DNA of 64,000 bases from Geomonas agri. Its GTDB lineage: Bacteria; Desulfobacterota; Desulfuromonadia; Geobacterales; Geobacteraceae. This document shows, one piece after another, positions 48,139 to 64,000 of the stretch. The translations under genes and the position numbers were made by a program. The stretch lies in the NCBI RefSeq assembly GCF_020179605.1, contig NZ_JAINZO010000001.1:2330799-2394798 (forward strand). The letters run 5' to 3'. Numbering within the stretch: the stretch's first letter is position 1; each line of letters starts with the position of its first letter. Under the pieces are notes generated by a model. The model was not told the DNA's origin, did no database searches, and was given only the letters and a program-made list of their open reading frames with translations.

Positions 48139-48858
48139 CTACGGCACGGTCAGGTTCACCACGGTGTCCCCCCCCTGTATGGTGAGGGTAGTGACCGCCA
48201 AAGCGTTGCTGGCCAGGTTGCGCACCCAGATCCTCTTGCCGGTTAGGGTATAGCTCTGCGGCTGGATGGTGAACAGGTTCGGGTCCGGGTTGATCACCGC
48301 GATGTCGGTGACTTGGTACTGCGCGCCGGACGGGTTGGCCGTGTCCTTGATGCTGACGGAGACCGGTACGGCCACGGCGTCGCTGACATCGGTATAGGTC
48401 ATGGTGTAGGCCCCGTTTACCGTCGGGGGGGAGAACGCGCCCAACTGGACGAATTTCGTGGTGCTGACGAAGTCGGCGCTCTGATCCCCGATGGTGAGGG
48501 TGCTCGTGGTCGAGGTGCCGAGGACGGTCGAGGACTTGTGGGTCACGGTGACGGTGTCGCCGTTTTTCACGGTGCCGGCGCTGCTCGTGGCGGTGCCGCC
48601 GTTGATGGAATAGGTGCTGCCGGTCGCCCCGCTGACGCTGATGGGACTGGTGGCCGCGGTCAGCCCGCTGACCGTGATGGGGGCGGAGGTGACATCGACG
48701 TTCTTCTCGGTGCCGTTTATCGCCCCAATGGTGAAGGGATCGGGGGAGGTCGCGGACCTCACGTAGGGGGGAAACCACTCGACTCCGCAACCGGCGAAAG
48801 CAAACAGCAGCAACAAGGGGAGCATCCGCGCAAGGAATCGTAACAAGGAAAACTTCAT
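48139..48858 (-). CDS. Lipoprotein with Ig-like beta repeats
   Basis: 239 residues. The signal peptide ends in the lipobox FAFAGC, so the mature protein starts with a lipidated Cys near residue 24. The rest is Thr/Ser/Val-rich with alternating strands (TSAPITVSGLTAATSPISVS, VKNGDTVTVTHKSSTVLG) that suggest two or three immunoglobulin-like modules. The C-terminal part (QPQSYTLTGKRIWVRNLASN) could be a surface or assembly domain. No enzyme motif. It stands alone, divergent from none; the next gene is a hybrid kinase 70 bases upstream on the same strand. Confidence 0.7.
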   Translation of the reverse strand: MKFSLLRFLARMLPLLLLFAFAGCGVEWFPPYVRSATSPDPFTIGAINGTEKNVDVTSAPITVSGLTAATSPISVSGATGSTYSINGGTATSSAGTVKNGDTVTVTHKSSTVLGTSTTSTLTIGDQSADFVSTTKFVQLGAFSPPTVNGAYTMTYTDVSDAVAVPVSVSIKDTANPSGAQYQVTDIAVINPDPNLFTIQPQSYTLTGKRIWVRNLASNALAVTTLTIQGGDTVVNLTVP

Positions 48859-48928: not shown

Positions 48929-51469
48929 TTAACGGAGCTGGCGGGCGCTCTCCCAGTCCAGCGATGAGAGGACCTCACGCAACGCCGAGAGCTTGTAGGG
49001 CTTCTGCACGAAACCGGAAATCCCTTTGCCCAGGAACTTTCGGGACACCTCGTGCTCGCTGAAGCCGCTCGACATCACGACCCTAACCCGCGGATCCATC
49101 CGGCGCAGTTCCATCAAGCACTGTTCCCCGTCCATCTGCGGCATGGTCAGGTCGAGCAGCACCAGGACGATGTCGTTGCGGCTGCGGAAGATCTCTATTC
49201 CTTCGTACCCGTCCGCGGCGGTCACCACCTGGAACCCCAACTCGCCGAGCATGTCGCTACCGAGCGCCCGGATGGTGTCCTCGTCGTCGATCAGGAGGAC
49301 GGTCCCGCTGCCGCGCCAGGTCTGCTGCGGTGCGGCAGCAGCATGTTGGAGCAGGGCCGGCTCGTCTTCCGCCGGAAGCACCACGGTGAAGGTACTCCCC
49401 TGCCCCGGCTGGCTGTCGACGCGGATCGCGCCCAGGTGGCCGCGCACGATGCCCAGTACCGCTGCCATTCCCAGCCCCCGCCCGGTGAACTTGGTGGTGA
49501 AGAACGGCTCGAAGATTTTGGCCATGAGGTCACGGTCCATGCCGCACCCGGTGTCGGACACCTTGACGTAGACGTAGCGTCCGGGCTGGAGCGCATCGGA
49601 GAGCCAGCCGCCGCCAGGGAGGGAGTCGGTGCACTCGACACTGCCGGTGGATACGGTGATGGTCCCGCTCTGGTCGCCGATCGCCTCCGAGGCGTTGATG
49701 ACCAGGTTCATCAGCACCTGTCTGATCTGGGTGGCATCGGCGGTTACCGCAGGCAGAGGGCGACACAGATTGTAGACGAGTTGCGACTTCTTAGAGACGG
49801 AGACGCTGAGCATGTGCCCCATCTCCTCCACCAGTCGGTTCAGGTCCAGTTCCTCGGTTATGAAATGCCCCTTGCCGGAATAGGCGAGCATCTGGTGCGC
49901 CAGGTCCGAAGCCCTGGTCGCCGCCAGCTCGATGCGGTGCAGGTTGTCGACCACGGGGGAATCGGGGGTGAGCCGCATCAGGGCCAGGTCGGTGTTGCCG
50001 ACGATGACGGTGAGGATGTTGTTGAAATCGTGAGCGATACCGCCGGCCAGGACGCCCAGGCTTTCCAGCTTCTGGGCATGCAGCATCTGCTTTTCCAGCT
50101 TCAGGCGCTCCTCCTCGGCCCGTCTGCGCTGGGTGATGTCGTGGGCGGACCAGATCACCCGTCCGCCCGGCATGGGGGTGACGTTGCCGGTGAACCAGAC
50201 CTCCTCATCGTCGAGGGTGAGGGCGTAGTCGACCGTCACGGTCTTCCCGGAAGCGAGCGCCCTGCCGATGGTGGTGATGAAGAGATCGGACAGCTCCTTG
50301 GGGAACAGATCGGGAATTTTCTTGCCCAGCAGCTCGTCCGGGGGAAGATACAGCCTCTTGGTGCTGGTGGGTGCGATCTCCAGGTAGCGTCCTTCGGCGT
50401 CCAGCACCAGGATGACCTCGGTGAGGGAGGCAAAGATGGAGCGGAGCTTCTCCTCCGAGGCCTGCAGCGCCTCCTCGGCATGCCTGCGCTCGACCACCTC
50501 GGTCTGCAGCCTCGCGTTGGTTGCCTGGAGTTCGCGGGTCCGCTCATCGACCATCCGTCTCAAAACGATGGGCTGGCGTACCAGCCAGTAGGCCGTCAGC
50601 GCGCACAGGGAACTCAAGAGCAGTACCAGGGCCGCCTCTCCCAAGACCACCCGTTGCGCGTACCATCCCCCCACCGGTTCGACGGACAGGAGCCACTCCC
50701 CATTGGGGAGGGCGATGTGCTGGCTTACCGGGCGTTCCAAGGGCGCGCCATGGCTCCAGAAGACGTCCAGGGCCCCGGTATCGGGCTTGATCCGGCTGAT
50801 CCGGTAGTTCAAGTCGGGAGTGAGCGTGGTCTGCAGGTGCACCGCCTCGAAGAAGCTCTCCAGGCGGATCATGGCGGCGGTGAAGCCCCAGAACTGTTTC
50901 TGCCCGTCGGAACCCTTGAGGTATACCGGGAGCCGCCCCATGAGCGCGAGTCCCCCCTGCACCAGTTGAAACGGGCCAGCAAGGGTGAGCGAACCGTGGC
51001 GCAACGCCTCGACGGCCTCTGTGTTGGCGTGGGACTTGTCCAGGAGGTTCAGGCCGATAGCCTTCTCGTTCCCCTGCAACGGGACGATTTCGGTGATGAT
51101 GCCGCCGGGAACCAGCTGCAGAGCGGAAAGCCCAGGGTAGAGATCGAGCATCTCCCTGGCCAGTTCCTGAAAGTTATCGATGCGTCCGTTCCCCTGGCGG
51201 ATCACGGCGGCGAGGGCGTAGGTGGAGGAAATGGAGCGGTTCAGGTACTCCTGGATGTCGTGGGCGGCGTTGGTGGTGAGGTCGGAGACAGCCTGGCGGC
51301 GGCTGTCCTGGCGCGTGGTCTCGAACAGCAGCATGGTGGAGCCGGACAGGAACAGGCCGACCAGGAAAGCAAGGAGCGTGACAGTCCAGACCCGGACAGT
51401 GTCCGCGGATGGCGGTGGTGACGGGGGGGGTGACGCGGTAGGCGCATGGCTCATGCGAGCGTTGTCCAT
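48929..51469 (-). CDS. CHASE-PAS hybrid histidine kinase with C-terminal receiver
   Basis: 846 residues. TM1 about 25-45, a periplasmic CHASE domain (60-250; ALQLVPGGIITEIVPLQGNE and ANTEAVEALRHGS), TM2 about 265-285, coiled coil, PAS (315-430), HisKA with His480 in LAGGIAHDFNNILTVIVGN, HATPase (FTGRGLGMAAVLGIV) and a receiver (VLLIDDEDTIRALG, LVLLDLTMPQMDG). CHASE domains bind small extracellular ligands. No output partner is adjacent. The ATG at 51469 begins the Pro-rich N-terminus; the frame continues to 51547 without a ribosome site. Confidence 0.87.
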   Translation of the reverse strand: MDNARMSHAPTASPPPSPPPSADTVRVWTVTLLAFLVGLFLSGSTMLLFETTRQDSRRQAVSDLTTNAAHDIQEYLNRSISSTYALAAVIRQGNGRIDNFQELAREMLDLYPGLSALQLVPGGIITEIVPLQGNEKAIGLNLLDKSHANTEAVEALRHGSLTLAGPFQLVQGGLALMGRLPVYLKGSDGQKQFWGFTAAMIRLESFFEAVHLQTTLTPDLNYRISRIKPDTGALDVFWSHGAPLERPVSQHIALPNGEWLLSVEPVGGWYAQRVVLGEAALVLLLSSLCALTAYWLVRQPIVLRRMVDERTRELQATNARLQTEVVERRHAEEALQASEEKLRSIFASLTEVILVLDAEGRYLEIAPTSTKRLYLPPDELLGKKIPDLFPKELSDLFITTIGRALASGKTVTVDYALTLDDEEVWFTGNVTPMPGGRVIWSAHDITQRRRAEEERLKLEKQMLHAQKLESLGVLAGGIAHDFNNILTVIVGNTDLALMRLTPDSPVVDNLHRIELAATRASDLAHQMLAYSGKGHFITEELDLNRLVEEMGHMLSVSVSKKSQLVYNLCRPLPAVTADATQIRQVLMNLVINASEAIGDQSGTITVSTGSVECTDSLPGGGWLSDALQPGRYVYVKVSDTGCGMDRDLMAKIFEPFFTTKFTGRGLGMAAVLGIVRGHLGAIRVDSQPGQGSTFTVVLPAEDEPALLQHAAAAPQQTWRGSGTVLLIDDEDTIRALGSDMLGELGFQVVTAADGYEGIEIFRSRNDIVLVLLDLTMPQMDGEQCLMELRRMDPRVRVVMSSGFSEHEVSRKFLGKGISGFVQKPYKLSALREVLSSLDWESARQLR

Positions 51470-51569
51470 GGGAACTCGACTGCTACGGGTTCGGTGCGGC
51501 AAAAAAGCGGCAACTTCCTGAATAACCGAAACTTCGCAGGAGTGCAAGCCTTTTCGGAGGCAAGCCCGT

Positions 51570-52328
51570 TCAGCCCATGCGGTCCAGAAGGCGCAGCAGT
51601 CCGTCGAGGATGGTCACCGGGTGGGGCGGACACCCCGGGATGTAGAGGTCGACCGGCAGCAGGCGGTCGACCCCGTCGTGGGCCGCGGGTGAGCCGATGA
51701 AGGGGCCGCCGTTGATGGCGCAGGCGCCACAGGCGACGACGAGCTTGGGTGCGGGGATGGCCTGGTAGGTCTGCAGCAACGCCTCGCGCATGTTCTCGGT
51801 GACGGGGCCGGTGACCCACAGGGCGTCGGCGTGGCGCGGGCTGGCGACGAACTGCAGTCCGAAGCGCCCGATGTCCCAGCCGATGGTGGAGAGGACGTTG
51901 CTGTCGGCCTCGCAGGCGTTACAGCCGCCGGCGACCACGGAGCGGAACTTGAGCGAACGGCCGAACAGGGCCAGCATCTTCTCGTCGAGCGCCTGGGCCA
52001 GCCTGCGCTCCTCCCCTTCCCGCACCACCAGGTCCTCGCGCCGGTTAACGGCCAGGCGGGCATCGTTGCCGTAGGAGATGGCGCCCTTGGGGCAGGCGTC
52101 GGCGCATTCTGCGCAGAACAGGCACTTGCCCAGGTCGACCGAGAGCCCCTTGCCGCACCCCACCGCCCCGACTGGGCAGGCGTCGGCGCAGAGACTGCAG
52201 TCCGGGGGGCAGAGGGAGCTTTTCAGCTCCGGGTAGCCGCGGAAGCGCTCCGGCAGCGGCAGCGGCTCTTTCGGGTACGCCATGGTGCGGTGCCCCTGCT
52301 TGATGCGGGCGAGGATGGCCTTGATCAT
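51570..52328 (-). CDS. Ehr complex small subunit fused to ferredoxin domain (HyfH/HyfI-like)
   Basis: 252 residues. The N-terminus holds two [4Fe-4S] motifs (Cys40, 44, 47, 51 and CLFCAECADACP at 69-79). The C-terminal half is a NuoB/hydrogenase-small-subunit module with Cys136 and Cys139 in GGCNACEADSN, Cys200 and Cys203 in ACGACAI and Cys233 in PGCPPHP. It should pass electrons from a soluble or periplasmic donor to the large subunit. It is the last gene of the six-gene Ehr operon. The ferredoxin part replaces a separate HyfH subunit. Confidence 0.85.
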   Translation of the reverse strand: MIKAILARIKQGHRTMAYPKEPLPLPERFRGYPELKSSLCPPDCSLCADACPVGAVGCGKGLSVDLGKCLFCAECADACPKGAISYGNDARLAVNRREDLVVREGEERRLAQALDEKMLALFGRSLKFRSVVAGGCNACEADSNVLSTIGWDIGRFGLQFVASPRHADALWVTGPVTENMREALLQTYQAIPAPKLVVACGACAINGGPFIGSPAAHDGVDRLLPVDLYIPGCPPHPVTILDGLLRLLDRMG

Positions 52329-52349
52329 GATGCGACTCCTGTCGATCCC

Positions 52350-53861
52350 CTACAGGTCGAACCCGCAGTAGGAAAGGTTGAAGCTCTTGTTGCACAGCGG
52401 GAAGTCGGAGATCTGCCCACCGCGCAGCGCCAACGCGAGCCCGGTCCAGTTGTGGAAGGAGGGGTCGGTCACCTTGTAGCGCTGGAAATTCCCCTTGGCA
52501 TCGGTGAGTGCCACGTGGCAGATCTCGCCGCGCCACCCTTCAGTGAGCGCGATTGCGAGCTGGTCCCCCGCCACCTCGCGCACCGGGTTGGCCAAGGCCG
52601 CTCCGGGCAACTGGGAGAGTTGCTCCTCGATGAAGTCGAGGGACTTCTCGATCTCCAGCCAGCGCACCAGGGTCCGCGCGTAGACGTCGCCGCTCCTGGC
52701 GGTCTCCACCGGGATCTGGCTCATGCTGTAGATGCCGAAGGGATGGTCGCGGCGGATGTCCCGGTTCAGGCCGCTGGCACGAGCGGCAGGTCCCACCAGC
52801 CCCAGCTCGATCGCAGTCTGCTCGCTCACCACGCCGGTCCCCTCGAGCCGTGCCATTACCGACGGCGTATCCCAGAGGAGATCGATCGCGTTGTGCACCT
52901 CGTCACGGGCCACCTTGATCCGGTCGGCAAGCTGGCGCGCCCCCTCGCCGTCGAGGTCGAAACGCACGCCTCCCGGGAGCACCAGGTCGCGGCCGAAGCG
53001 GCTGCCGCAGATCCCCGCGGTCATGTTAAGGAAATCACCGCGGATCCTACCGCAGAACGAGGCGGTGGGAAGGTAGCCCACATCGCCGGCGATGGCACCC
53101 AGGTCGCCGGTGTGGTTGGCGAGCCGCTCGAGTTCCAGGGCGATGCCGCGCACTACCTGGGCCCGGGCCGGCACCCGCGTCCCGGTGAGCGCCTCGAGTA
53201 TCATGGCGTAGGCGGTGCCGTGACCGATGGTGGTGTCCCCTGCCACGGTCTCCATCAGCTTGCGCTTGCGCTCGCCCGGGCGCCCCAGCATCATCCGCTC
53301 GACGCCCCGGTGCTGGTAGCCAAGCGAGATCTCCAGGTGCATCACCTCCTCGCCGAAGCACTGGAAGCGGAAATGGCCGGGTTCGATGATACCGGCATGG
53401 ACCGGGCCGACGGCCACCTCGTGCACCTCCTCACCCTCCACGCGGTAGAAGTCCATGACGCCGATGGTGGGGGGTGCCTCGGGAATCTCGCCGGGGAGAG
53501 AGCCAAGCGCCGGGGCGAAGCGGACCGGCTTGGGCCAGGGGTGCCCCTCCAGGTCCAGGAAGAACTGCTCGGCGATCTCGCGTTCGAAGAGGTGCAACTG
53601 CGGCGCGTCAGCGACCAGCGAGTAGAAGCTTTTGCCGGTGACCAGGGTGCTCATGACGCCTATGGAGGCGTGGCTCTTGAAGGAAAGGAGGCAGAACAGG
53701 CAAACGCCGTCCTCCTCCTGCATGCCGAAGTAGGAGACCACACGCCAGCCGCCGGCAAGGGCGGAGAGCAGGGCTTGGGCGAAGCGTTCGGGCGCGTGGC
53801 GCGGAATCTCGCGGCGCGGCAGCACGCCGCCGTTCTGGGTGAAGACCATGGCCGGGCTCAT
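52350..53861 (-). CDS. Ehr complex large subunit (HyfG/HycE-like) without nickel ligands
   Basis: 503 residues: NuoC-like domain (1-150) fused to a NuoD/NiFe-large-subunit domain. The proximal motif, which in group 4 hydrogenases reads R-x-CG-x-C, is here ETVAGDTTIGHGTAY, with Ala207 and non-Cys residues at the nickel positions. The C-terminal D-P-C-x-x-C is replaced by FPLCNKSFNLSYCGFDL (Cys490 and Cys499, wrong spacing). The [NiFe] centre cannot form. This is the defining trait of energy-converting-hydrogenase-related complexes. It overlaps the preceding HyfF-like gene by four bases. Confidence 0.88.
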   Translation of the reverse strand: MSPAMVFTQNGGVLPRREIPRHAPERFAQALLSALAGGWRVVSYFGMQEEDGVCLFCLLSFKSHASIGVMSTLVTGKSFYSLVADAPQLHLFEREIAEQFFLDLEGHPWPKPVRFAPALGSLPGEIPEAPPTIGVMDFYRVEGEEVHEVAVGPVHAGIIEPGHFRFQCFGEEVMHLEISLGYQHRGVERMMLGRPGERKRKLMETVAGDTTIGHGTAYAMILEALTGTRVPARAQVVRGIALELERLANHTGDLGAIAGDVGYLPTASFCGRIRGDFLNMTAGICGSRFGRDLVLPGGVRFDLDGEGARQLADRIKVARDEVHNAIDLLWDTPSVMARLEGTGVVSEQTAIELGLVGPAARASGLNRDIRRDHPFGIYSMSQIPVETARSGDVYARTLVRWLEIEKSLDFIEEQLSQLPGAALANPVREVAGDQLAIALTEGWRGEICHVALTDAKGNFQRYKVTDPSFHNWTGLALALRGGQISDFPLCNKSFNLSYCGFDL

Positions 53862-55291
53862 GCCTCACCTCCCAAAAGCCGCGCTGCGTCGCGCAAGAGG
53901 TCCTGCAGCGGCGTCGGGATCCACAGCCCCAGCACCAGGACGAGCCCCATCAGGACCAAGGGGGGCAACACCGTGGGGACCGCATCCCGGTAGCGGGTCC
54001 GCTCCAGGTCCGGCGGCACCTCGCCCAGGACCACAGGGAGCACGGTGGAGGCCATGCCGATGAAGATCAGCGCCAGGAAGAGGAGGAATAGCCCGCCGGT
54101 CCAGTGGTTCCCCTGCCCGAAGGCGGAAGAGACAATCAGGAACTCGCTGACGAAGGGGGCGAAAGGGGGCGACCCGGTGATGGCAAGGAAGGCAGCGAGA
54201 AAGAGCGCCGCCGACCAGGGTGTACGACGGAGGGCTCCGCGCACAAACTGGGTGCTCTTGGAGTTGAAGGCGCGGTGGATGTTACCGCAGGCGAGAAAGA
54301 GCACCCCCTTGGTGAGGGAGTTGTTGATCATGTGCAAAAGCCCGGCGAAGAGTGCCCCCTTCCCCAGCCCCAACGCCACCGCAATGATGCCGACGTGCTC
54401 GACGCTTGAGTAGGCAAGCATGCGCTTGAAGTCGCTCTGGCGCGCCATGAAGACGGCGGCGAAGGCCATGGAGACGAGCCCCATGGTGAGGAGCACCTGC
54501 TGGAAGAGCGCCCCTTCTGTCGAGGCGGCCGCTACCTGGTACACACGCAACAGCGCCAGCAGGGCGCAGTTGACCAGCCCCCCGGCCAAGAGGGCGCCGA
54601 CCAGGCCGGGCGCCTCACCGTAGGCGTCGGGCTTCCAGGTGTGCAGAGGGGCGAGCCCCATCTTTGAGCCGAAGCCGACCAGCAGGAAGATGAAAGCGGC
54701 ATGGCGCCACCCCGGGTGCAGCGCCGCCGCGTCCCGGATCAGGGCCGGGAGGAGGAGGCTCACCTCCTGCTTGGCAACGATGGTGGAGTAGGCCAGGAAG
54801 AACAACCCCAAGAGGGCGATGGCGATACCGACCGAGCAGATCAGGAGGTACTTCCAGGTGGCCTCGATGGAGCGGGCGTTGTGGTTGAAGTAGATGAGCG
54901 GCGCCATGGTCAGGGTGGTGGCCTCCAGTGCGATCCACAAAAGCCCCAGGTGCTGCGAGATGACCACCAGCGAGGTCGCGGAAAGGCAGACCAGCAGCGA
55001 GGCGCACAGGATCCGATTGGGGCGCTTGAGGCGATAGCTCAGGTAGCCGACCGCGTAGAGGGAGCAGATCGTGAACAGCACGCTGTTGGCCATGAGCACG
55101 AGCTTGCCCAAGGAATCGAGCCAGATCCATCCCGCCGGGGACGGTGGCGGGGTGTGCACGAGGAGCCCGGCGCTCACGGCGAGGTGCGCCAGCGAGAAAA
55201 CGGGGAGCACCCAGACGCGCCGGCGGTTGTCCGGGACAAGCCAGGAGAGCGCGGCGCCGAGAAGCGGAAGCAGGACCAGGGCCCACAACAT
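53858..55291 (-). CDS. Ehr complex membrane subunit, HyfF/NuoN-like
   Basis: 477 residues, about 14 helices. The Mrp/Nuo antiporter core is intact: LLWIALEATTLTMAPLIYF with Glu in helix 5, KMGLAPLHTWKPDAYGEAP with Lys/His, a KRMLAYSSVEHVGIIAVALG segment and NNSLTKGVLFLACGNIHRAF. These residues carry protons or sodium in complex I and Hyf. It is the fourth gene of the operon, five bases from the HyfE-like gene. Confidence 0.88.
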   Translation of the reverse strand: MLWALVLLPLLGAALSWLVPDNRRRVWVLPVFSLAHLAVSAGLLVHTPPPSPAGWIWLDSLGKLVLMANSVLFTICSLYAVGYLSYRLKRPNRILCASLLVCLSATSLVVISQHLGLLWIALEATTLTMAPLIYFNHNARSIEATWKYLLICSVGIAIALLGLFFLAYSTIVAKQEVSLLLPALIRDAAALHPGWRHAAFIFLLVGFGSKMGLAPLHTWKPDAYGEAPGLVGALLAGGLVNCALLALLRVYQVAAASTEGALFQQVLLTMGLVSMAFAAVFMARQSDFKRMLAYSSVEHVGIIAVALGLGKGALFAGLLHMINNSLTKGVLFLACGNIHRAFNSKSTQFVRGALRRTPWSAALFLAAFLAITGSPPFAPFVSEFLIVSSAFGQGNHWTGGLFLLFLALIFIGMASTVLPVVLGEVPPDLERTRYRDAVPTVLPPLVLMGLVLVLGLWIPTPLQDLLRDAARLLGGEA

Positions 55292-55295
55292 GTCG

Positions 55296-55937
55296 CTATT
55301 CCTCCCTCAGCGCGGAGAGTCTCGAGGTGTCGATGCTCGAGAATTCGCGGCTGATGTGGTTGATGACGATCCCCATGACGAAGATACCGACCAGGAGGTC
55401 GAGGAGCGCCCCGGCCTCCACCATGACCGGCATGGCGTCGGCCAGAAGAAGGCCGAACAGGAAGATGCCGTTTTCCATGAGCAGGTAGCCCAGAACCTGC
55501 GAGATCGCCTTGCGTCTCCCCATGAGCACCAGAAAGCCGCTCATGAGGGTAGCGGCGGCCGCCGGCACGATCAGGAGCCCCTCGTGCTCCGGGGCGAGCG
55601 GGAGTTTGGCCGCGAAGATGAAGGCGAGCGAGGTGAAGAGCGCCCCCAGAACCAGCGACGGGATGTAGCCGATGAACGGAGAGAACTCGCGCTCGATCTC
55701 CGCCTTCTTGATGGCGCGGATGATCAGGACCGGGATCAGCCCCCCCTTGACCAGGATGATGCTCACCACGATGAAGCTGACGTGCCAGGAGAAGGGGTGC
55801 ACCAGCGCCGGGAGCGTGCCGAGCAGCACCCCCTGCACCGCCACACAACGCACCGAGAAGGCGAGCCGGCTGGTGCCCAGGACGGCGAAATTGATCAAGA
55901 GACAGAGAACCAGCAGCTGGTCGGCCAGGGAATTCAT
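55296..55937 (-). CDS. Ehr complex membrane subunit, HyfE/NuoK-like
   Basis: 213 residues, about six helices. HyfE-like features include LGRRKAISQVLGYLLMENG (the Glu in the helix corresponds to the NuoK proton residue) and VGIFVMGIVINHISREFSSI. HyfE is longer than NuoK, and this protein has the HyfE length. It lies between HyfC- and HyfF-like genes with only four-base gaps. Confidence 0.84.
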   Translation of the reverse strand: MNSLADQLLVLCLLINFAVLGTSRLAFSVRCVAVQGVLLGTLPALVHPFSWHVSFIVVSIILVKGGLIPVLIIRAIKKAEIEREFSPFIGYIPSLVLGALFTSLAFIFAAKLPLAPEHEGLLIVPAAAATLMSGFLVLMGRRKAISQVLGYLLMENGIFLFGLLLADAMPVMVEAGALLDLLVGIFVMGIVINHISREFSSIDTSRLSALREE

Positions 55938-55941
55938 ATGG

Positions 55942-56856
55942 TCACCTCACAACCAGAACCAGGGAGAATGCGGTCAGGATCAAGGCCGCGACCAGGAGCT
56001 GCGGCACGCGGATCAGCCTCAGGCGCGCCATCACCGACTCCACCACCCCGATGGCGACGGCGAGGAGCAGCATCCCCCCCGCGAACACCACCCAATCCAC
56101 GTAGGCGTTACCCGAGGCGAAAGGAAGCGCGATGTTCACGAAGAGCGCGCCCAGGAGGTAGAGCTTCAACGCGGCGCCGTAGAGGACGCAGCAGAAATAG
56201 GGACCACTGTGGTCCAGCACCATCACCTCGTGGATCATGGTGAGCTCGAGGTGGGTGTTGGGGTCGTCGAAGGGGATGCGGCAGTTCTCCGCCAAAAGCA
56301 CGACGAACAGGCCGGCCAGCAGCAGGATCAGCGAGGCGCCGGTACCCATCCACACCGGGAGCGTCACGTGGTGCAACATCGGGGTGAGGCTCATGGCCCC
56401 GGAGAGCCTGGTCAGGGTGATCAGGGCGAAGAAGAGCGTCGGCTCGGCCAGGCAGGAGAAGCTCACCTCGCGGGCCGCCCCCATCCCCTCGAAACTGGAG
56501 GCGGTGTCGAGCGCCGCCGTCGTGGTGAAGAAGCGACCCAGGGCGAAGAGGTAGGCGAACAGGATCATGTCCCCTTCGAAGGAGATGGGCGCCGGGTGTT
56601 TGCCGAGCGGCACCAGGAGCGCCGCGAACAGGGTGGCCGCCAGCGTCACCACCGGCCCGGCCCGGAAGATCCAGGTGGTGCTGTCGGAGAGGACGATCCC
56701 CTTTTTCATGAGCCGTCCCATGTCGTAGTAGGGCTGCAGGAAAGGAGCACCCACCCGCCCGGCGAAGGCCGCCTTGGTCTTGCCGATCACCCCCAGCAAC
56801 AGCGGCGGCATGGCCAGCACCAGTACCACGTGGAAGATTGTGTCGATCATGTCCAA
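55942..56856 (-). CDS. Ehr complex membrane subunit, HyfC/NuoH-like
   Basis: 304 residues, about eight helices. It matches complex I subunit 1: GAPFLQPYYDMGRLMKKG, AREVSFSCLAEPTLFFALI and ENCRIPFDDPNTHLELTM, with the acidic residues that lead from the redox site into the membrane. NuoH lines the quinone pocket in complex I; in Ehr and Hyf the quinone site is not proven. The next gene is four bases downstream. Confidence 0.88.
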   Translation of the reverse strand: MDMIDTIFHVVLVLAMPPLLLGVIGKTKAAFAGRVGAPFLQPYYDMGRLMKKGIVLSDSTTWIFRAGPVVTLAATLFAALLVPLGKHPAPISFEGDMILFAYLFALGRFFTTTAALDTASSFEGMGAAREVSFSCLAEPTLFFALITLTRLSGAMSLTPMLHHVTLPVWMGTGASLILLLAGLFVVLLAENCRIPFDDPNTHLELTMIHEVMVLDHSGPYFCCVLYGAALKLYLLGALFVNIALPFASGNAYVDWVVFAGGMLLLAVAIGVVESVMARLRLIRVPQLLVAALILTAFSLVLVVR

Positions 56857-56869
56857 CTCCTGTGCCCCT

Positions 56870-58846
56870 CTAATGCACCCACAACAAAAGCAGCATCAGC
56901 GTCACGAAGATATAGAGAATATAGATCTGCACCTCGCCGTGCTGCAGTCTCCGCACGAAGGCGCAGCCGACGCCGAGCACGTTCAGCACCGGCAGCACCA
57001 CCCGGTGCAGCAGGGTCTCCTCGGGATGGTAACTCAACCGCACGGTAGCCGGGGTGAGGCCGGTCACGGCCCCCATGGTGATTCGGGTGCGGATCAACGA
57101 CCCCGAAAGAGAGGAAAAGAAGGCGCCGAAGGAGCTGCCGGTGTACTGGATACGCGGCGACGGCCGGAGATAGCCACAGCCCCAGGTGGAGGCGGCAGCG
57201 GTGCACCCACGGGTCTTCGCCTTCAGGAACAGGAACAGGGCCGTGGCGAGGCAGATGACTGAGCCTCCCGCCAGCGCGAACCAGACCGGCGCAATCGGGA
57301 GCACCGCGGCGTGGGCCAGGTCGGGGGCCAGCCCCCGGATGGCCGGCCGCACCAGCGCCAGGAAGAGCTGCGGGAAAAGGCCGCCGGTAAGGGCGAGGCA
57401 GGCGAGCAGGGCGATAGGGGCGAGCATGGTGCCGCTCGCCTCGTGGGCACCGGCAGCCTCGGCTGTTCGAGGCTCCCCCAAAAAGGCGATGCCGTAGAGT
57501 TTCACGAAGGAGATCACCGCGACGCCCCCGACCAGGGCCAGCACCGGCGCGCCAAGGGCCAGGAAAGGTTGCCCGGCGCGGGCCTCGCCGAAGAACCCGA
57601 GGTAGAGGAGCATCTCGCTGGCGAAGCCGTTGAAGGGGGGGAGGCCGCAGATGGCGATGGCGCCGCACAGGGTGAAGAAGGCGGTGTAGGGGAGCCGGCG
57701 CGCCAGCCCGCCCATCCGGTCAAGGTCGCGGGTGCCGGCGGCGTGCATGACACTGCCGGCGCAGAAAAAGAGCAGCGGCTTGAAGATGGCGTGGTTCAGC
57801 ACGTGGAACAGGGCACCGGCAAGCCCCAGGAAAGCGAGCCGCTCGTTGCCAGTCCCCTGCCCGACGAGGAACATGCCGATACCGGCGCAGATGATGCCCA
57901 GGTTTTCGATGCTGCTGTAGGCCAAAAGCCGCTTGATGTCCTTCTGAGCCGAGGCGACGCAGATCCCCATCACGGCGGAGCTGAGTCCAGCGCCGATGAG
58001 CACCCCGCCCCACCAGAGCGGGCGCTCCGGGAAGAACGAGACCACGCGCAGGATGCCGTACACCCCGATCTTCAACATGACGCCGGAGAGAAGCGCCGAG
58101 ACGTGGCTCGGCGCGTTGGCGTGGGCAGACGGGAGCCACAAGTGCAGCGGCATGAGCCCTGCTTTGGAGCCAAACCCCGCCAAAGCAAGCCAGAAGAGCG
58201 TGCCGGCCAAGCCCGCCCCCACCGCGAGCGAACCGGCAGCGGGAAAGCCGAAGCCGCCGGTGATCATGAACAGCGAGGCGAACAGGAACAGGAGTGCCGC
58301 CCCACCCAGGTGGCTCGCCACCAAGTACACCGTCCCCGCGCCGCGCACCTCACCCTCGCGATGCTCCGCCACCAGCAGGAAGTAGCCGGAAAGCGCCATG
58401 ATTTCCCACGCCATCACGAACAGGGCGCCGTTACGCGACACCACCACCAGCGCCATGGCGCACGCCAGCAGACCGTAGAAAAAGGTGACACTTCGTTGGG
58501 AGCTGTGCGAGGCGGCGGGCCAGTAACCGAGGGCGTAGAGGGAGCCGGCGGGGAACACCAGGAAGATGGGGATCAGAAAGAATAGAGAGAGAGGGTCGAG
58601 GGCGACTTCGCAGGGGCCGAAAGGGAGGTTCCAGTTCAGAAGGAAGCTTGCTTCTCCTCCCCCGAGCAACAGGTAGAGAAGAGACGGTAGCGCGAGAAGT
58701 GAGCTGGCTAGCGCGGCTACCGAGGCCAGCCGTTGTCCGAGTGTCCCGTCTCGCAACACGAGACCGGGAAGCCCTGAACAGCCGGCTAGAGCTATTGCGC
58801 AAAGGACCAGGAAAGCCGGGTCCCGCATCATGTCAAAAAACAACAT
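56870..58846 (-). CDS. Ehr complex membrane subunit, HyfB/NuoL-like (first copy)
   Basis: 658 residues, about 16 helices. Antiporter core: FVMAWEIMALSGYFLLVAEH with the membrane Glu, GLMPLHLWLPSAHANAPSHV and KRLLAYSSIENLGIICAGIG. The C-terminal part has WGCGYLRPSPRIQYTGSSFG before a last membrane helix, a feature of HyfB-type subunits. It is the first gene of the operon; ATG at 58846 follows AAGGGTGGGTT. A paralogue with the same C-terminal motif lies at 61870. Confidence 0.88.
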   Translation of the reverse strand: MLFFDMMRDPAFLVLCAIALAGCSGLPGLVLRDGTLGQRLASVAALASSLLALPSLLYLLLGGGEASFLLNWNLPFGPCEVALDPLSLFFLIPIFLVFPAGSLYALGYWPAASHSSQRSVTFFYGLLACAMALVVVSRNGALFVMAWEIMALSGYFLLVAEHREGEVRGAGTVYLVASHLGGAALLFLFASLFMITGGFGFPAAGSLAVGAGLAGTLFWLALAGFGSKAGLMPLHLWLPSAHANAPSHVSALLSGVMLKIGVYGILRVVSFFPERPLWWGGVLIGAGLSSAVMGICVASAQKDIKRLLAYSSIENLGIICAGIGMFLVGQGTGNERLAFLGLAGALFHVLNHAIFKPLLFFCAGSVMHAAGTRDLDRMGGLARRLPYTAFFTLCGAIAICGLPPFNGFASEMLLYLGFFGEARAGQPFLALGAPVLALVGGVAVISFVKLYGIAFLGEPRTAEAAGAHEASGTMLAPIALLACLALTGGLFPQLFLALVRPAIRGLAPDLAHAAVLPIAPVWFALAGGSVICLATALFLFLKAKTRGCTAAASTWGCGYLRPSPRIQYTGSSFGAFFSSLSGSLIRTRITMGAVTGLTPATVRLSYHPEETLLHRVVLPVLNVLGVGCAFVRRLQHGEVQIYILYIFVTLMLLLLWVH

Positions 58847-59245
58847 AACCCACCCTTTCGAACCAGGAACGGATCGTCATCTGCCCATCGAGTTTCAACC
58901 TCCAGCGCAACCGGGGATGCCGGCGACGCAGAAGGGGAGCAAAGCTGCCACAGCTGCCGCTTTTCCATTCAACTGTAACGACAGCGTGTCGATACTGTTT
59001 ACAGGGGGCGACAGGGACCTCACCATACTCCCTGAAAATGGATTTGTCAAAAAAAGATTTTTAATGTTCTACAGGAGGATATAAAACAACAATACCGGCG
59101 AAGTGCCTTGTTTTCAAGCGGGTTGCCGCTATCATTAAACACTAGCTCCGCTTTTTGTTCGAACATTGTTATACAAAGCGAGACAGCGCGACGTTTTTCC
59201 CCACGCTGTCGAGAAATGATACATCTGGGTGAAAGGAGGGAGTCC
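58847..59245. other. Divergent control region of Ehr and cytochrome operons
   Basis: 399 bases with no supported gene. TGTTCGAACA at 59156-59165 is a perfect palindrome about 80 bases before the cytochrome start and may be an operator. An AGGAGG at 59072 has no start codon after it. No confident promoter could be read on either strand. Confidence 0.4.
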
Positions 59246-59722
59246 GTGAAGAGTCATGTTTGGCGCCCGCTTTATGTGGTGCTGGTGGTGATCGCCCTGG
59301 TGCTGGTTGTCCGCAAGGTCCTGGTCCCGGCGGACTTCGGGATCGGCGCCAGGGGGTACATGTACGGCTGGCACCGCGCCGGCAACGAGCAGCAGTGGAA
59401 AGATGTGAAGGTGAAGTACAAGACCGCGGCCTTTTGCAAGGATTGCCATCCCGACAAGTACGATGAGATGAAGGAGTCGCCACATCGCAACATCAACTGC
59501 GAGAACTGTCACGGCCCCGCCCTCAATCACCCGGACGATCCCAAGTCGCTGACCATCGACCGCAGCCGCGAACTCTGCGCCCGCTGTCACACCCGTCTCC
59601 CCTACCCCAACAGCGGCCGCGGCATCATGAAGGGGATCGATCCCAAGACCCACAACGTCGGCCTGGACTGCGTCACCTGCCACTGGCCGCACGATCCCAG
59701 GAAGGAGGGGCACAAGAAATGA
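59246..59722 (+). CDS. Membrane-anchored tetrahaem c-type cytochrome (CbcS-like)
   Basis: 158 residues from GTG 59246 after AAAGGAGGGAGTCC. One N-terminal helix (8-25, VVLVVIALVLVV) anchors it with the haem domain outside. Four CxxCH sites: CKDCH (64), CENCH (85), CARCH (111) and CVTCH (142); a lone His at other positions could be a distal ligand. It should exchange electrons with periplasmic cytochromes. A longer frame from 59108 lacks a ribosome site. The order cytochrome, Fe-S, NrfD matches the Cbc4 (CbcSTU) complex of Geobacter; the assignment is by layout and motifs. Confidence 0.85.
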   Translation: MKSHVWRPLYVVLVVIALVLVVRKVLVPADFGIGARGYMYGWHRAGNEQQWKDVKVKYKTAAFCKDCHPDKYDEMKESPHRNINCENCHGPALNHPDDPKSLTIDRSRELCARCHTRLPYPNSGRGIMKGIDPKTHNVGLDCVTCHWPHDPRKEGHKK

Positions 59723-60501
59723 TTTCGAGACGATCCTTCTGCAAGAAATCTCTCCTCATCGCGGGGGGACTGGCGATCCCGCTCTCGTGCCTGGAACTGT
59801 TTGATCCCAAGCGGCTGCTGGCCGAGAAGGACCAGAAGGGGCCGCGCTGGGTCTTCCTGGTCGATACCCGCAAATGCGTGGGGTGCGGCTTCTGCGTCAA
59901 GGGGTGCAAGGTCGAGAACGAGGTCCCCTACGACGCCAACGTGACCCGCACCTGGGTGGAGCGCTACGTCGTGACCAACGACGGCAAGACGCACATCGAC
60001 TCGCCTAAGGGGGCGCGTGACGGCTTCCCCAACAAAGGGATCGACATCGGCCACGGCAAGCTGGAGGAAATCAAGGACGACGACATCGATAAGGCCTTCT
60101 TCGTGCCCAAACTCTGTAACCAGTGCGACAACCCGCCCTGCGTCCAGGTTTGCCCCGTGGGCGCCACCTACCAGACGGCGGACGGCGTGGTGCTGGTCGA
60201 CCGGAGCTGGTGCATCGGCTGCGGCTACTGCATCATGGGATGCCCCTACGGGGTGCGTTTCTTCCATCCGGTGTTCCACGTTGCCGAGAAGTGCAACTTC
60301 TGCTACCACCGCATCACCAAGGGGATGCAGACCGCCTGCGTCGACAGCTGCGCCTTCGGGGCGCGCCGCGTGGGGAACCTCAGGGACCCCGAAGACCCGG
60401 TAACCAAGGTCATCATGACCGAGCGCGTCAACGTACTCAAGGAAGAGTACGGCACCAAGCCGCAGGTCTTCTACCTCGGCCTTTCCAAGGAGGTGAAATA
60501 G
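59719..60501 (+). CDS. Periplasmic four-cluster ferredoxin (CbcT/NrfC-like), Tat signal
   Basis: 260 residues. It begins MISRRSFCKKSLLIAGG, a twin-arginine signal (S-R-R-x-F). Four [4Fe-4S] motifs follow: CVGCGFCVKGC, CNQCDNPPCVQVCP, CIGCGYCIMGCP and CNFCYHRITKG with a later ACVDSC. This is the DMSO-reductase-chain B / HybA / NrfC type, which carries electrons between a membrane quinone protein and a periplasmic partner. It overlaps the cytochrome stop by four bases and is two bases from the NrfD gene. Confidence 0.9.
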   Translation: MISRRSFCKKSLLIAGGLAIPLSCLELFDPKRLLAEKDQKGPRWVFLVDTRKCVGCGFCVKGCKVENEVPYDANVTRTWVERYVVTNDGKTHIDSPKGARDGFPNKGIDIGHGKLEEIKDDDIDKAFFVPKLCNQCDNPPCVQVCPVGATYQTADGVVLVDRSWCIGCGYCIMGCPYGVRFFHPVFHVAEKCNFCYHRITKGMQTACVDSCAFGARRVGNLRDPEDPVTKVIMTERVNVLKEEYGTKPQVFYLGLSKEVK

Positions 60502-60503
60502 CC

Positions 60504-61751
60504 ATGGTGCACGGAGAAGCCTGGACCATAAAAGAGTTTTTCACCTACCCCAACGAGTACATCTACTGGACCATCCAGATCGTCATGTACCCCTTCATGA
60601 CCGGCCTGGTCGCCGGCGCTTTCGTGCTCTCCTCGCTGTACCACGTCTTCGGCGTGAAGCAGTTGAAGGGGATCGCGCGTTTCTCGCTGGTGTTTTCCTT
60701 CGCGCTGCTGCCGGTCGCCATGCTGCCGCTTCTGATGCACCTGCAGCAGCCGCTGCGCGGCATCGAGGTGATGATGACGCCGCACTTCACTTCGGCCATC
60801 GCCGCCTTCGGCATCGTATTCAGCACCTACGGCATGATCGTCGCCTCGGAACTCTGGTTCGTGTTCCGCAAGCACTTCGTGGAGACCGCGCTGGCGCTGA
60901 AGAGAGTCGAGGGGCGCACGGCGCTGCAGCAAGGGCAGTATGTCCTGTTTAGCGTGCTGACGCTCGGAGCCTGGGATGTCTCGCACGAGGCGCTCGAGGC
61001 CGACGAGCGCGCGGTCAAGAAGCTCGCCGCCGCCGGCATCCCGGTCGCCTGCTTCCTGCACGGCTACGCCGGCTTCATCTTCGGCTCAGTCAAGGCGAAC
61101 GCGCTCTGGATGACCCCGCTCATGCCGGTCATCTTCATCTGTTCCGCGGTCGTCTCCGGCATCGCCCTCTGCATCCTGACCTACATCCTCACCATGGAGA
61201 TCAGGAAGCAGCTGGCACGGCGGCACCGGCTCGCCCACCCCGAGCTCCCCTCGATGGAGGAGCTGAAGAGTGCGGAAGCCCATGTGGTCGCGATGACCTC
61301 GCGCTACCTGCTCATGTTCATGGTGGCGGCCATCACGCTGGAGCTTTTGGACCTGATCTTCAGGGGATACACGGCGGTGAAATCGTGGGACATCCTCAGG
61401 AGCGTCATCTACGAGCGGGATTTCGTGAACATCTTCGTGATTCAGTACGGACTGGGCAACCTCGTCCCCTTCGTGTTGTTCATGATCCCGGGACTGACCA
61501 TCCGCCGGGCTGCGGTGGGGACCATGCTGGTACTGGTGGGTGTCTTCATGATGCGCTGGAACGTCGTCATCGGCGGGCAGGCCTTCTCGTCTTCATTCTC
61601 GGGATTCATGCACTACGTCCTGCCGATATGGCCGGACAGCATGGAGACACTAAAGGAAGGATTTTTCGGCGCCATGATCGTGGCGGTGGTTCCCTTCTGC
61701 ATCTTCTACGTGCTGAACAAGGTAATGCCGGTCTTTAAGGAGACGCACTAA
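60504..61751 (+). CDS. NrfD/PsrC-type quinone-interacting membrane protein (CbcU-like)
   Basis: 415 residues with about ten membrane helices. NrfD/PsrC features: YPNEYIYWTIQIVMYPFMTG at the start, VCSSL-like VLSSLYHVFGVKQL, and a buried Glu in VASELWFVFRK. It probably oxidises or reduces menaquinone and feeds the ferredoxin and cytochrome encoded upstream. ATG at 60504 follows AAGGAGGTGAAATAGCC. The operon ends here; a terminator lies 60 bases on, shared with the convergent gene. Confidence 0.88.
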   Translation: MVHGEAWTIKEFFTYPNEYIYWTIQIVMYPFMTGLVAGAFVLSSLYHVFGVKQLKGIARFSLVFSFALLPVAMLPLLMHLQQPLRGIEVMMTPHFTSAIAAFGIVFSTYGMIVASELWFVFRKHFVETALALKRVEGRTALQQGQYVLFSVLTLGAWDVSHEALEADERAVKKLAAAGIPVACFLHGYAGFIFGSVKANALWMTPLMPVIFICSAVVSGIALCILTYILTMEIRKQLARRHRLAHPELPSMEELKSAEAHVVAMTSRYLLMFMVAAITLELLDLIFRGYTAVKSWDILRSVIYERDFVNIFVIQYGLGNLVPFVLFMIPGLTIRRAAVGTMLVLVGVFMMRWNVVIGGQAFSSSFSGFMHYVLPIWPDSMETLKEGFFGAMIVAVVPFCIFYVLNKVMPVFKETH

Positions 61752-61869: not shown

Positions 61870-63873
61870 CTACCCGCTGGTGATGGCGAGCAGTAGCACC
61901 AAGGTCACGAAGGTGTAGAAGATGTAGATGTTCAGCTTGCCATGCTGCAGGCGGCGCACTGGCTGGGCCTTCTCGAACAGGTACTCGAGAAAAGGAAGAT
62001 ACCCCTTCTCAAGCACTGTCTCCGGAACGTGACTCTCGTGACTCGCGTGCCCCGGGAAAAGCTCCTTAACCTCTTCGCGATGCAGCACGGGACGGAGCAC
62101 CAGCGCGAACCACCCTACCAGGATGGCCCCGAAAGAGGAGGCCGTGTACTGCATCCGCGGCGTCGGTCTGAGGTAGCCGCACCCCCAGGTCGGCGCGACA
62201 GGGACCGATAAACGGGCGGCACGCCTGGCGAAGAAGATCCACATAACCACCAGCAGCAGGATCATGGCTACCCCGAGGATCGATATCCAAACGAAGGGAA
62301 CGTGGTTCGCGATCCCTTGCTGCAACTCGAGCGCACGGCCGTACTCGTGCAGGGCGCCGTTCAGGACCGGGACCACCAGCCCCGGCGCCAGCCCGATCAG
62401 GGCACAGCACGCGGCGATTACCCCCATTGGGGCCAGCATGCCGATACCCGCCTCATGCCCCCCCTCGTGTTCCGGCGAGCGCGGCGCCCCCAGGAACACC
62501 ACCCCGTACACCTTGACGAAGCAGGCCACCGCCAGCCCTCCCACCAGTGCCAGCACCGGCGCCGCCAGCGCCGGCAGCGACGGCCCCAGGCCGACGGCAG
62601 CACCGATGGAGTTGAAGGCTCCCAGGTAGATCATCAGTTCGCTGACGAAGCCGTTCAAAGGGGGAAGGCCGCAGATGGCGACGGCGCCGACCAGGAAAAG
62701 AAGGGCGGTCTTGGGCAACCGGCGCGCCACGCCCCCCATTAGGTCGATCTCCCTGGTACCGGTGGCATGGATCACGGAACCGGCGGAAAGAAATAGCAGT
62801 GCCTTGAACAGAGCATGATTCACGACATGCAGGAGCGCCCCCGCCATCCCGAGCGCAACCAGCGCCTCCCACCCCTGGTTGGCGCCGATCAGCGCCATGC
62901 CGAGACCGATCAGGATGATGCCGATGTTCTCGATGCTGTGGTAGGCCAGAAGCCGCTTCAGGTCGTGCTGCCCGATGGCGTAGGCGACCCCGAGCACGGC
63001 GGAGATGCATCCCAGCACCAGTACCACGGCGCCCCACCACAGCGGCGGATCGTTGAAAGCGGAGAAGACGCGCATCATCCCGTAGATCCCGGTTTTCAGC
63101 ACCACGCCGGAGAGAATCGCGGAGACGTGGCTGGGGGCGTTGGCGTGGGCCGAGGGGAGCCAGATGTGCAGCGGCATCACGCCCGCTTTCATCCCAAAAC
63201 CGAATAGGGCGGTGAGAAAAATGGCCGTGGCCATGGGGCCTGCGGCAGAGAGGGAGCCGGGAGCGGGAAACAGGTAGGCGCCGGTGGCGGCGTTGAGGAG
63301 CGAGAAAGTGGCGAAGAGCGCCAGGGCCCCGAGGTGGGCGGTGATCAGGTAGAGCACCCCGGCCTCGCGCACCTCCTGCTTTTCGTCCTCGGTGGTAAGG
63401 GCGAAGTAGGCGGCTAGGGCCATCACTTCCCACCCCATCAAGAAGAGCATGGTGCTTCTGGCCACCAGCACCACGGTGAGGGCCGCGGACAGTAGTCCCA
63501 GGAAGAACGCAAGCTTACCGCCGTGTTCCGGGTGCTGCGCCACCGGCCAATAGCCGGCGCCGTAGACGGCGCAGCAGCCGGTGACGATGAAAATGGGGAG
63601 AAGAAAGAGTGCGGACAGTGCATCGACGCCTATCTCGAGCCCACCGAAAGGGAGCCCTGAGGGAAGGAGCCAGGTTCCGGGGACGGGGAAGAAGACCGCA
63701 CCGAGGGCACCGGCACAACCGGCCAGCGATGCCATGACCATGAGGGCGACGCCGGCGCGCTGGGCGAGGCTCGATCCTTTGGCCAGCAACAGCGGCAGCC
63801 CGGAGGCAGCCTGGCAGCAAACGGCGAGCAACAACAGTCCAAGAGAAGTCGCAGGCTCGCCGGAGAAGGTCAT
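61870..63873 (-). CDS. HyfB/NuoL-like membrane subunit (second copy)
   Basis: 667 residues, about 16 helices, clearly paralogous to the protein at 56870. Shared parts include FLMGWEVMALAAYFALTTED, GVMPLHIWLPSAHANAPSHV, KRLLAYHSIENIGIILIGLG and a C-terminal WGCGYLRPTPRMQYTASSFG. ATG at 63873 follows AAGAGGAGCTGATC. No other Hyf-like gene lies downstream on this strand, so it is the last gene of a second cluster whose beginning is beyond the right edge. Confidence 0.88.
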   Translation of the reverse strand: MTFSGEPATSLGLLLLAVCCQAASGLPLLLAKGSSLAQRAGVALMVMASLAGCAGALGAVFFPVPGTWLLPSGLPFGGLEIGVDALSALFLLPIFIVTGCCAVYGAGYWPVAQHPEHGGKLAFFLGLLSAALTVVLVARSTMLFLMGWEVMALAAYFALTTEDEKQEVREAGVLYLITAHLGALALFATFSLLNAATGAYLFPAPGSLSAAGPMATAIFLTALFGFGMKAGVMPLHIWLPSAHANAPSHVSAILSGVVLKTGIYGMMRVFSAFNDPPLWWGAVVLVLGCISAVLGVAYAIGQHDLKRLLAYHSIENIGIILIGLGMALIGANQGWEALVALGMAGALLHVVNHALFKALLFLSAGSVIHATGTREIDLMGGVARRLPKTALLFLVGAVAICGLPPLNGFVSELMIYLGAFNSIGAAVGLGPSLPALAAPVLALVGGLAVACFVKVYGVVFLGAPRSPEHEGGHEAGIGMLAPMGVIAACCALIGLAPGLVVPVLNGALHEYGRALELQQGIANHVPFVWISILGVAMILLLVVMWIFFARRAARLSVPVAPTWGCGYLRPTPRMQYTASSFGAILVGWFALVLRPVLHREEVKELFPGHASHESHVPETVLEKGYLPFLEYLFEKAQPVRRLQHGKLNIYIFYTFVTLVLLLAITSG

Positions 63874-63875
63874 GA

Positions 63876-64000
63876 TCAGCTCCTCTTGCCGCGCTCGCAG
63901 CGCCGGGCGGCATCCATGATGGCCGCGGGATCACAGGCGTTATTGAGGATGCCCCGAAATCCCTGGTCGTGCAGGGCGTAGGCGAGTCGGGACAGGAGGT
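63876..64000 (-). CDS. Unidentified protein (N-terminal part beyond window)
   Basis: The minus strand is open from the right edge to TGA at 63876, giving about 40 C-terminal residues that include LSRLAYALHDQGFRGIL and DPAAIMDAARRCERGKRS. Its stop is two bases before the ATG of the HyfB-like gene, so both are on one mRNA. The sequence is too short to identify. Confidence 0.5.
   Translation of the reverse strand, partial: LLSRLAYALHDQGFRGILNNACDPAAIMDAARRCERGKRS

Follow-up and report, generated by a model that had tools for sequence, protein, structure and literature searches.

A strictly conserved candidate pocket marks the former nickel site of an Ehr complex encoded by Geomonas agri

Energy-converting-hydrogenase-related (Ehr) complexes have been described as lacking the ligands of the nickel site (PMC6349859, PMC10284858, PMC10432482, PMC12342949, PMC13194489), several of these papers calling their function unknown in the passages accessible to us, and published excerpts report them from Geobacter, Nitrospira, ammonia-oxidising archaea and candidate phyla. 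The complex of Geobacter sulfurreducens (GSU0739-0745) contains a NuoL-like EhrA, a HyfE-like EhrC, EhrL and EhrS, and its nickel site is reported absent in the accessible parts of PMC7894505, PMC8691401 and PMC13194489. Here we analyze an operon from the 4.68 Mb genome of Geomonas agri, contained in a stretch of 64,000 nucleotides (contig NZ_JAINZO010000001.1, positions 2,330,799 to 2,394,798; hereafter the window) and encoding the same subunit types, a likeness that rests on composition and host group and not on the GSU sequences. Judged by its genes this operon is an Ehr complex, with a Hyf-like subunit set including antiporter and NuoH-like membrane subunits and with the nickel ligands gone; it is a new member of a class of complexes that is itself already known. 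A preliminary description of the locus had remarked that the electron donor, acceptor and pumped ion of Ehr are not established, and no published passage on Ehr that was accessible to us settles them. The Rv0082-Rv0087 locus of Mycobacterium tuberculosis is a possible Ehr relative.

Six closely packed genes on the minus strand, running from 58846 to 51570, encode the subunits in the order EhrA1-B-C-D-L-S, with the start of the EhrL gene overlapping the end of the hyfF-like EhrD gene. All six open reading frames (ORFs) lie where the preliminary description had placed a Hyf-like order B-C-E-F-G-I, and the fusion of a ferredoxin domain to the small subunit that it had proposed is borne out by Pfam Fer4 and Oxidored_q6 matches in EhrS. 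Several NCBIfam matches of these ORFs fall below the curated cut-off, as marked in the list.

56870..58846, minus strand: EhrA1, HyfB-like antiporter subunit, 658 aa (NCBIfam hyfB, 4.1e-167, below the curated cut-off)
55942..56856, minus strand: EhrB, HyfC/NuoH-like subunit, 304 aa (Pfam NADHdh, 1e-30)
55296..55937, minus strand: EhrC, HyfE-like subunit, 213 aa (NCBIfam hydrogenase 4 membrane subunit, 1.7e-22, below cut-off)
53858..55291, minus strand: EhrD, HyfF-like antiporter subunit, 477 aa (NCBIfam hyfF, 1.1e-100, below cut-off)
52350..53861, minus strand: EhrL, NuoC-NuoD/HycE-like large subunit without nickel ligands, 503 aa (phmmer to 7z0s, 2.7e-50)
52350..52409, minus strand: codons of the EhrL C-terminal tail including the stop, SDFPLCNKSFNLSYCGFDL, the strictest part of the candidate new pocket
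51570..52328, minus strand: EhrS, two-cluster ferredoxin domain fused to a HyfI/NuoB-like small subunit, 252 aa (Pfam Fer4 and Oxidored_q6)

Compared with solved structures, EhrL matched formate hydrogenlyase subunit 5 (HycE; 7z0s, E 2.7e-50) and the alpha subunit of membrane-bound hydrogenase (6cfw) best. The closest named relatives found come from Geomonas (86-95% identical in EhrL), Citrifermentans (75%) and Geomesophilobacter (70%), and a Verrucomicrobia contig encodes a relative of 55% identity. A phylum search covering 395 genomes returned 85 with a match at E <= 1e-60, and 80 stretches were taken (places G141, G305, G372, G005, G016, G096 and G173 were left out). These stretches, 10 nearest-relative loci, the window and a second copy in locus L080 gave 92 EhrL sequences. 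Another 11 from plasmids (10 records were used, out of 40 listed among 89) and three from the class of locus L117 brought the total to 106; all conservation counts include the window. An EhrL-like gene with a diverged tail on an Alicyclobacillus plasmid (L139:11866-13362), which has no annotated sibling subunits in the part of the plasmid displayed, is included among the 106 and accounts for several exceptions. In a tree whose outgroup comprised only five non-Ehr sequences, 98 Ehr-type large subunits formed one clade (support 0.924), sister to HycE/HyfG. The large subunits of Escherichia coli formate hydrogenlyase and hydrogenase-4 on that sister branch share with EhrL the fusion of NuoC and NuoD, and these systems share the form of the proximal cluster, whereas the six genes of the operon include no FdhF/HycB counterpart, unlike E. 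coli formate hydrogenlyase.

Aligned with HycE and HyfG, EhrL has A207, T210, S497 and G500 at the four nickel-ligand columns. VAGDTTIGH had been read in place of the first CxxC and FPLCNKSFNLSYCGFDL in place of DPCxxC; both strings are present, and the alignment proposed with that reading, made against HycE, HyfG and NuoD-type sequences, revealed no nickel-ligand cysteines in EhrL. Across 92 EhrL sequences the columns read A72/S16/C2/G1/T1, T77/S14/A1, S91/A1 and G92, three of them being free of cysteine in 92 of 92 and the other in 90 of 92. Because A, T, S and G occupy the ligand positions, EhrL should carry no [NiFe] site, and the Ehr complex is almost certainly no [NiFe] hydrogenase. C-terminal cleavage of the large subunit is a maturation step of [NiFe] hydrogenases. 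EhrL ends in D502-L503 at the column of the D-R of NuoD and HycE, ahead of the C-terminal extension that HycE has and EhrL has not, and appears from its length to be encoded already in mature form.

A cryptic [NiFe] hydrogenase with shifted cysteines, such as C490 and C499, would agree with the homology to HycE/HyfG and with the presence of HypD, a Ni-Fe maturation protein, in 68 of 75 near-complete Ehr genomes (72 of the 85 from the phylum search, 13 being left out, and three from the search of L117's class). Yet the first CxxC is devoid of cysteine, C490 (C90/I9/N6/T1 in the 106 EhrL sequences) and C499 (C76/S23/A7; one column off the second cysteine of DPCxxC) are not conserved, and 7 of the 75 genomes have no HypD match. 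Moreover, HypD may act on other hydrogenases: apart from EhrL, the genome of the window encodes a group-4-type large subunit (L016:10661-11743, G000:C2) whose ligands are intact, C-S-L-C and DPCIACTDR. We consider a cryptic hydrogenase extremely improbable. Both cysteines are conserved near the window's branch and replaced elsewhere, being absent together from the cluster-free operons of the L117 type described below; the idea that Cys490 and Cys499 could form the core of a new site was accordingly dropped, with 90 and 76 of 106 sequences keeping them and some lacking both. The group-4-type large subunit of the window's genome likewise ends at the D-R column, with no extension. Group-4 hydrogenase-like large subunits elsewhere in the collection have in-frame TGA codons within the first nickel CxxC, at its two cysteine positions in L167, L168 and L169 (U-G-I-U; from G085, G011 and G182) and at the first alone in L170 (U-G-I-C; from G009). 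These proteins are possibly double-selenocysteine hydrogenases, and G049 and G160 are listed with two TGA as well.

EhrL residues G208, R444, S493, Y498, G500 and D502 are present in 106 of 106 sequences. Strict, and at the same time unlike the aligned HycE/HyfG/NuoD-type sequences, are I159 (105 of 106), D209 (104), D253 (103), D466 (105), N491 (105), K492 (105), S497 (104), G500 (106) and L503 (105). We propose a pocket composed of E160, G208-D209, N249-H250, D253, R444, N491-K492-S493, S497-Y498-x-G500 and D502-L503. Its geometry comes from aligning EhrL with residues named in publications, as an AlphaFold model of the protein was poor (mean pLDDT 54.8; alignment of 10 sequences). Two elements of HycE/HyfG are retained, the beta1-beta2 glutamate (proton-transferring Glu193 of HycE, here E160) and the canopy arginine (Arg478, here R444), whereas canopy Asp529 is replaced by N495 (HycE residues from the accessible part of PMC9474812). 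The pocket is kept more strictly than the Fe-S ligands of EhrS, and its strict conservation argues against decay of the complex.

Decay has been suggested for G. sulfurreducens KN400, where the available text of PMC13194489 describes missense mutations in two of the ehr subunits following long-term culture on electrodes; a non-functional hydrogenase relic under relaxed selection would agree with these mutations and with the loss of the nickel site. We hold this to be very improbable, given the strict conservation over 106 sequences, a gene order A-B-C-D-L-S kept in 82 of 91 loci (window counted; contig ends truncate some of the remaining 9), and purifying selection on EhrL. The dN/dS of EhrL between the window and its relatives was 0.09 (L005 and L008), 0.15 (L010), 0.23 (L011) and 0.37 (L012), and 0.16 in the cluster-free pair L117/L156, by a simple method that may misjudge synonymous change under codon bias; a ratio of 2.97 for a neighbouring histidine kinase against L008 was set aside, as it has the look of a comparison made in the wrong frame or with a paralogue. 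Conservation across the family thus speaks against Ehr being non-functional.

The EhrS of the window has all 12 cluster cysteines, with distal, medial and proximal ligand sets each reading CCCC, which agrees with the earlier reading that the Fe-S ligands are kept. With all three sets in place, electrons most likely flow in this form of the complex, most simply from ferredoxin, which is probably the electron donor. The proximal loop, C136-x2-C139, has the hydrogenase length (equal to HycG) and four cysteines, with no adjacent CC. It differs in this from Pyrococcus furiosus MBS, a sulfane sulphur reductase, which is also hydrogenase-derived without a Ni-Fe centre and likewise lacks the complex I residues H38 and Y87, and whose proximal cluster has three cysteines and a shortened loop (PMC7684303, in the part accessible). 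It differs as well from complex I, with which the operon shares homologues of the antiporter, NuoH and NuoD/NuoB subunits and a large subunit ending at the same column (D-R in NuoD, D-L in EhrL), whereas the operon has no NADH module genes. H38 and Y87 of Nqo4, the quinone-headgroup ligands of complex I (PMC7684303, same part), align with I159 (105 of 106) and G208 (106 of 106). No terminal acceptor is therefore visible, since Ni-Fe ligands, complex I quinone residues and an MBS-type shortened loop are all missing.

These columns bear on whether Ehr is a ferredoxin:menaquinone oxidoreductase, a complex I without NADH module in which three clusters would lead to menaquinone bound between EhrL, EhrS and EhrB, with proton pumping, and which may run backwards to make reduced ferredoxin. 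The three-cluster chain, the NuoH-like EhrB with its E-channel residues and the presence of MenG (menaquinone methyltransferase) in 74 of the 75 Ehr genomes tested fit such a role, as does the higher level of Ehr in a formate condition in G. sulfurreducens, where the authors suggest reverse electron transport (PMC7894505, accessible passages). However, both quinone-headgroup residues are gone, the proximal cluster of EhrS is of the hydrogenase C-x2-C form and not the adjacent CC of NuoB, some members lack a complete cluster set, and Ehr is found in Riflemargulisbacteria, where a full quinone pathway was not identified according to the passages accessible in PMC6349859. We regard a menaquinone-reducing complex as unlikely, though worth keeping in view.

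The ligands of EhrS are lost by degrees across the family. A tally of 102 EhrS sequences gave 60 with all three sets, 20 without the distal set, one with three of four distal cysteines, 19 with the proximal set only and no ferredoxin domain (L137, whose N-terminal region contains non-ligand letters, is counted here), one with the medial set only (Allomeiothermus silvanus) and one with none (L117). Types with and without the ferredoxin domain also occur close together in one genome (L080; L125 and L057; L126 and L048; L131), as neighbouring operons in L080 and in Variovorax L131. Operons of the L117 type (E <= 1e-90) were found in 4 of 155 genomes of L117's class, belonging to 3 genera of one family. 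Their four EhrS proteins have no ferredoxin domain and have lost at least three of the four proximal ligands, the columns reading D,A,D,N; D,A,D,D; T,C,D,D; and D,C,D,D, so that two keep one cysteine. On the other hand, their EhrL proteins retain GIIEPGHF, SGD[ST], NKS and the D-L end, and antiporter and E-channel residues are nearly all kept among the positions checked. The exceptions are a change of E to K in EhrD of two operons, E174 to Q in EhrC of four and D180 to N in three, and R193 to H in EhrB of one; in L158 the reading frame of EhrA changes at a stretch of N in the assembly, leaving two EhrA columns at its end unscored. Between L117 and its 74% relative L156, dN/dS was 0.13-0.17 across all six genes (one pair). 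A search of the four genomes for other small subunits (E <= 1e-8) returned two in each, all eight of NuoB type with adjacent CC. A simple loss of clusters in aerobes did not fit the data: COX1 (E <= 1e-40) is present in 40 of the 75 Ehr genomes and in one of the four that are cluster-free. Neither the strict pocket motif nor the graded cluster loss was met in a limited search of the openly available literature, and the same narrow search found no cluster-free Ehr-like complexes, which does not imply their absence from print.

Instead of quinone, the pocket could bind a small polar molecule, a new soluble substrate that exchanges electrons with the proximal cluster and drives pumping, comparable to polysulphide in MBS. 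In strictness the motif equals an active site, 100 of 105 EhrS sequences (the 102 and three further members of the cluster-free family) have the full proximal set, and MBS itself sets the precedent of a new substrate in a complex derived from a hydrogenase (PMC7684303, accessible part). This alternative seems to us rather unlikely, because EhrS has four proximal cysteines with no three-residue shortening, so that an MBS-type open iron is not expected, because cluster-free members still keep the pocket, and because the comparison of neighbours across Ehr loci turned up no widely conserved enzyme pointing to a substrate.

Charged residues of the membrane arm are invariant in the aligned sets: E148, K228, K305, E314, K356 and E411 of EhrA1 (83 of 83), R129, E130, E138, E190, D197, E204 and E210 of EhrB (86 of 86), and K147, K210, K289 and K328 of EhrD (89 of 89), which substantiates the earlier remark that membrane proton residues are kept. 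Ehr is very probably ion-translocating. The HyfF-like subunit of a Rhodococcus Ehr (L137:10277-11794) is without several pump lysines and glutamates that the other compared operons keep. Since pocket and membrane arm outlast the clusters in one family, ion translocation worked by the pocket looks like the common denominator of Ehr, and to judge from these operons a function without electrons is fairly likely to be possible in the family.

We tentatively favor, at slightly less than even confidence, a reading of Ehr as an ion-translocating relative of complex I and formate hydrogenlyase in which the pocket works the pump and electrons drive or gate it where clusters exist. The former Ni-Fe cavity would have been rebuilt as a nearly invariant polar pocket. 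In the three-cluster form electrons, probably from reduced ferredoxin, would pass through EhrS to the pocket edge, where they would drive or gate the essential event, a protonation or ligand-binding change, and this change would be passed along the EhrB charge chain to the antiporter subunits. A bolder version, which we find conceivable but doubtful, makes Ehr at heart a non-redox ion translocator within the complex I superfamily, with a rebuilt pocket that has no strict cysteine and with accessory Fe-S clusters that were shed in some lineages, leaving one family free of redox cofactors. Several observations pull against the pocket-worked pump. The proximal set is complete in nearly all EhrS sequences, and all 81 that are long enough to align retain their medial and proximal cysteines, so that electron transfer clearly matters in the window's type; cluster loss is deduced from ligand residues. 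The cluster-free members come from four genomes of one family and could have taken a different job, and Allomeiothermus makes a weaker case, its medial set being still present and its pocket drifted, with the D209 and D253 columns changed. Finally, the near-universal MenG (73 of the 74 matches over the cut-off) fits a quinone role equally well; it does not discriminate, neither proving nor excluding such a role.

The surroundings of the operon contain the following further features.

61870..63873, minus strand: EhrA2, second HyfB-like subunit, 667 aa (NCBIfam hyfB, 2.1e-172, below cut-off)
63876..64000, minus strand: 3' part of a gene (P) with HTH_17 and PTS_EIIA_2 domains (Pfam PTS_EIIA_2, 5.5e-24; HTH_17, 4.4e-09)
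59108..61751, plus strand: divergent genes for a multihaem cytochrome c, a DsrO/TtrB-like Fe-S protein and NrfD (Pfam/NCBIfam)

EhrA2, encoded upstream of the operon, is 48.7% identical to EhrA1. The HTH-EIIA gene crosses the window end and spans 63876-64553 in extended coordinates (L015:4675-5352); a gene for a NapC/NirT-type multihaem cytochrome (L015:5825-7351) adjoins it just past the window. Of 91 loci, 42 had a detected EIIA gene, and in 38 of those a regular expression found a G-x-x-x-P-H motif, which resembles the EIIA phospho-histidine site; a HyfB gene adjoining the HTH-EIIA gene recurs in many loci. Both genes probably belong to the Ehr locus, EhrA2 probably as a further pump module of the same system; the six genes of the preliminary description are thus real, and these two, lying outside its span, had been missed.

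The window differs from the G. sulfurreducens locus in that its second HyfB is set apart by the divergent cytochrome/NrfD operon. The set of cytochrome c, Fe-S protein and NrfD lies between both HyfB genes in the window and in 8 of 9 near relatives of Geomonas type (L005-L013), and in the other loci compared no full set was found, with a lone NrfD-like match in L108 and cytochrome and Fe-S matches in L049. As a general partner of Ehr this operon was rejected, the full set being confined to near relatives, and it is probably a local neighbour and not part of Ehr. Directly downstream of EhrS lie genes for a CHASE-PAS hybrid histidine kinase (48929-51547) and for a protein that matches no Pfam family (48139-48858), a pair shared by the window and 8 near relatives.

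Against the paper that calls the Geobacter Ehr non-functional (PMC13194489, accessible part), the strict pocket argues otherwise, and the real job of Ehr may be other than the redox reaction that has been assumed. Its natural relatives without Fe-S ligands make it testable whether a membrane arm of the complex I type can work without electron transfer, a question that touches on the coupling of chemistry to ion flow in complex I, hydrogenases and Mrp antiporters.

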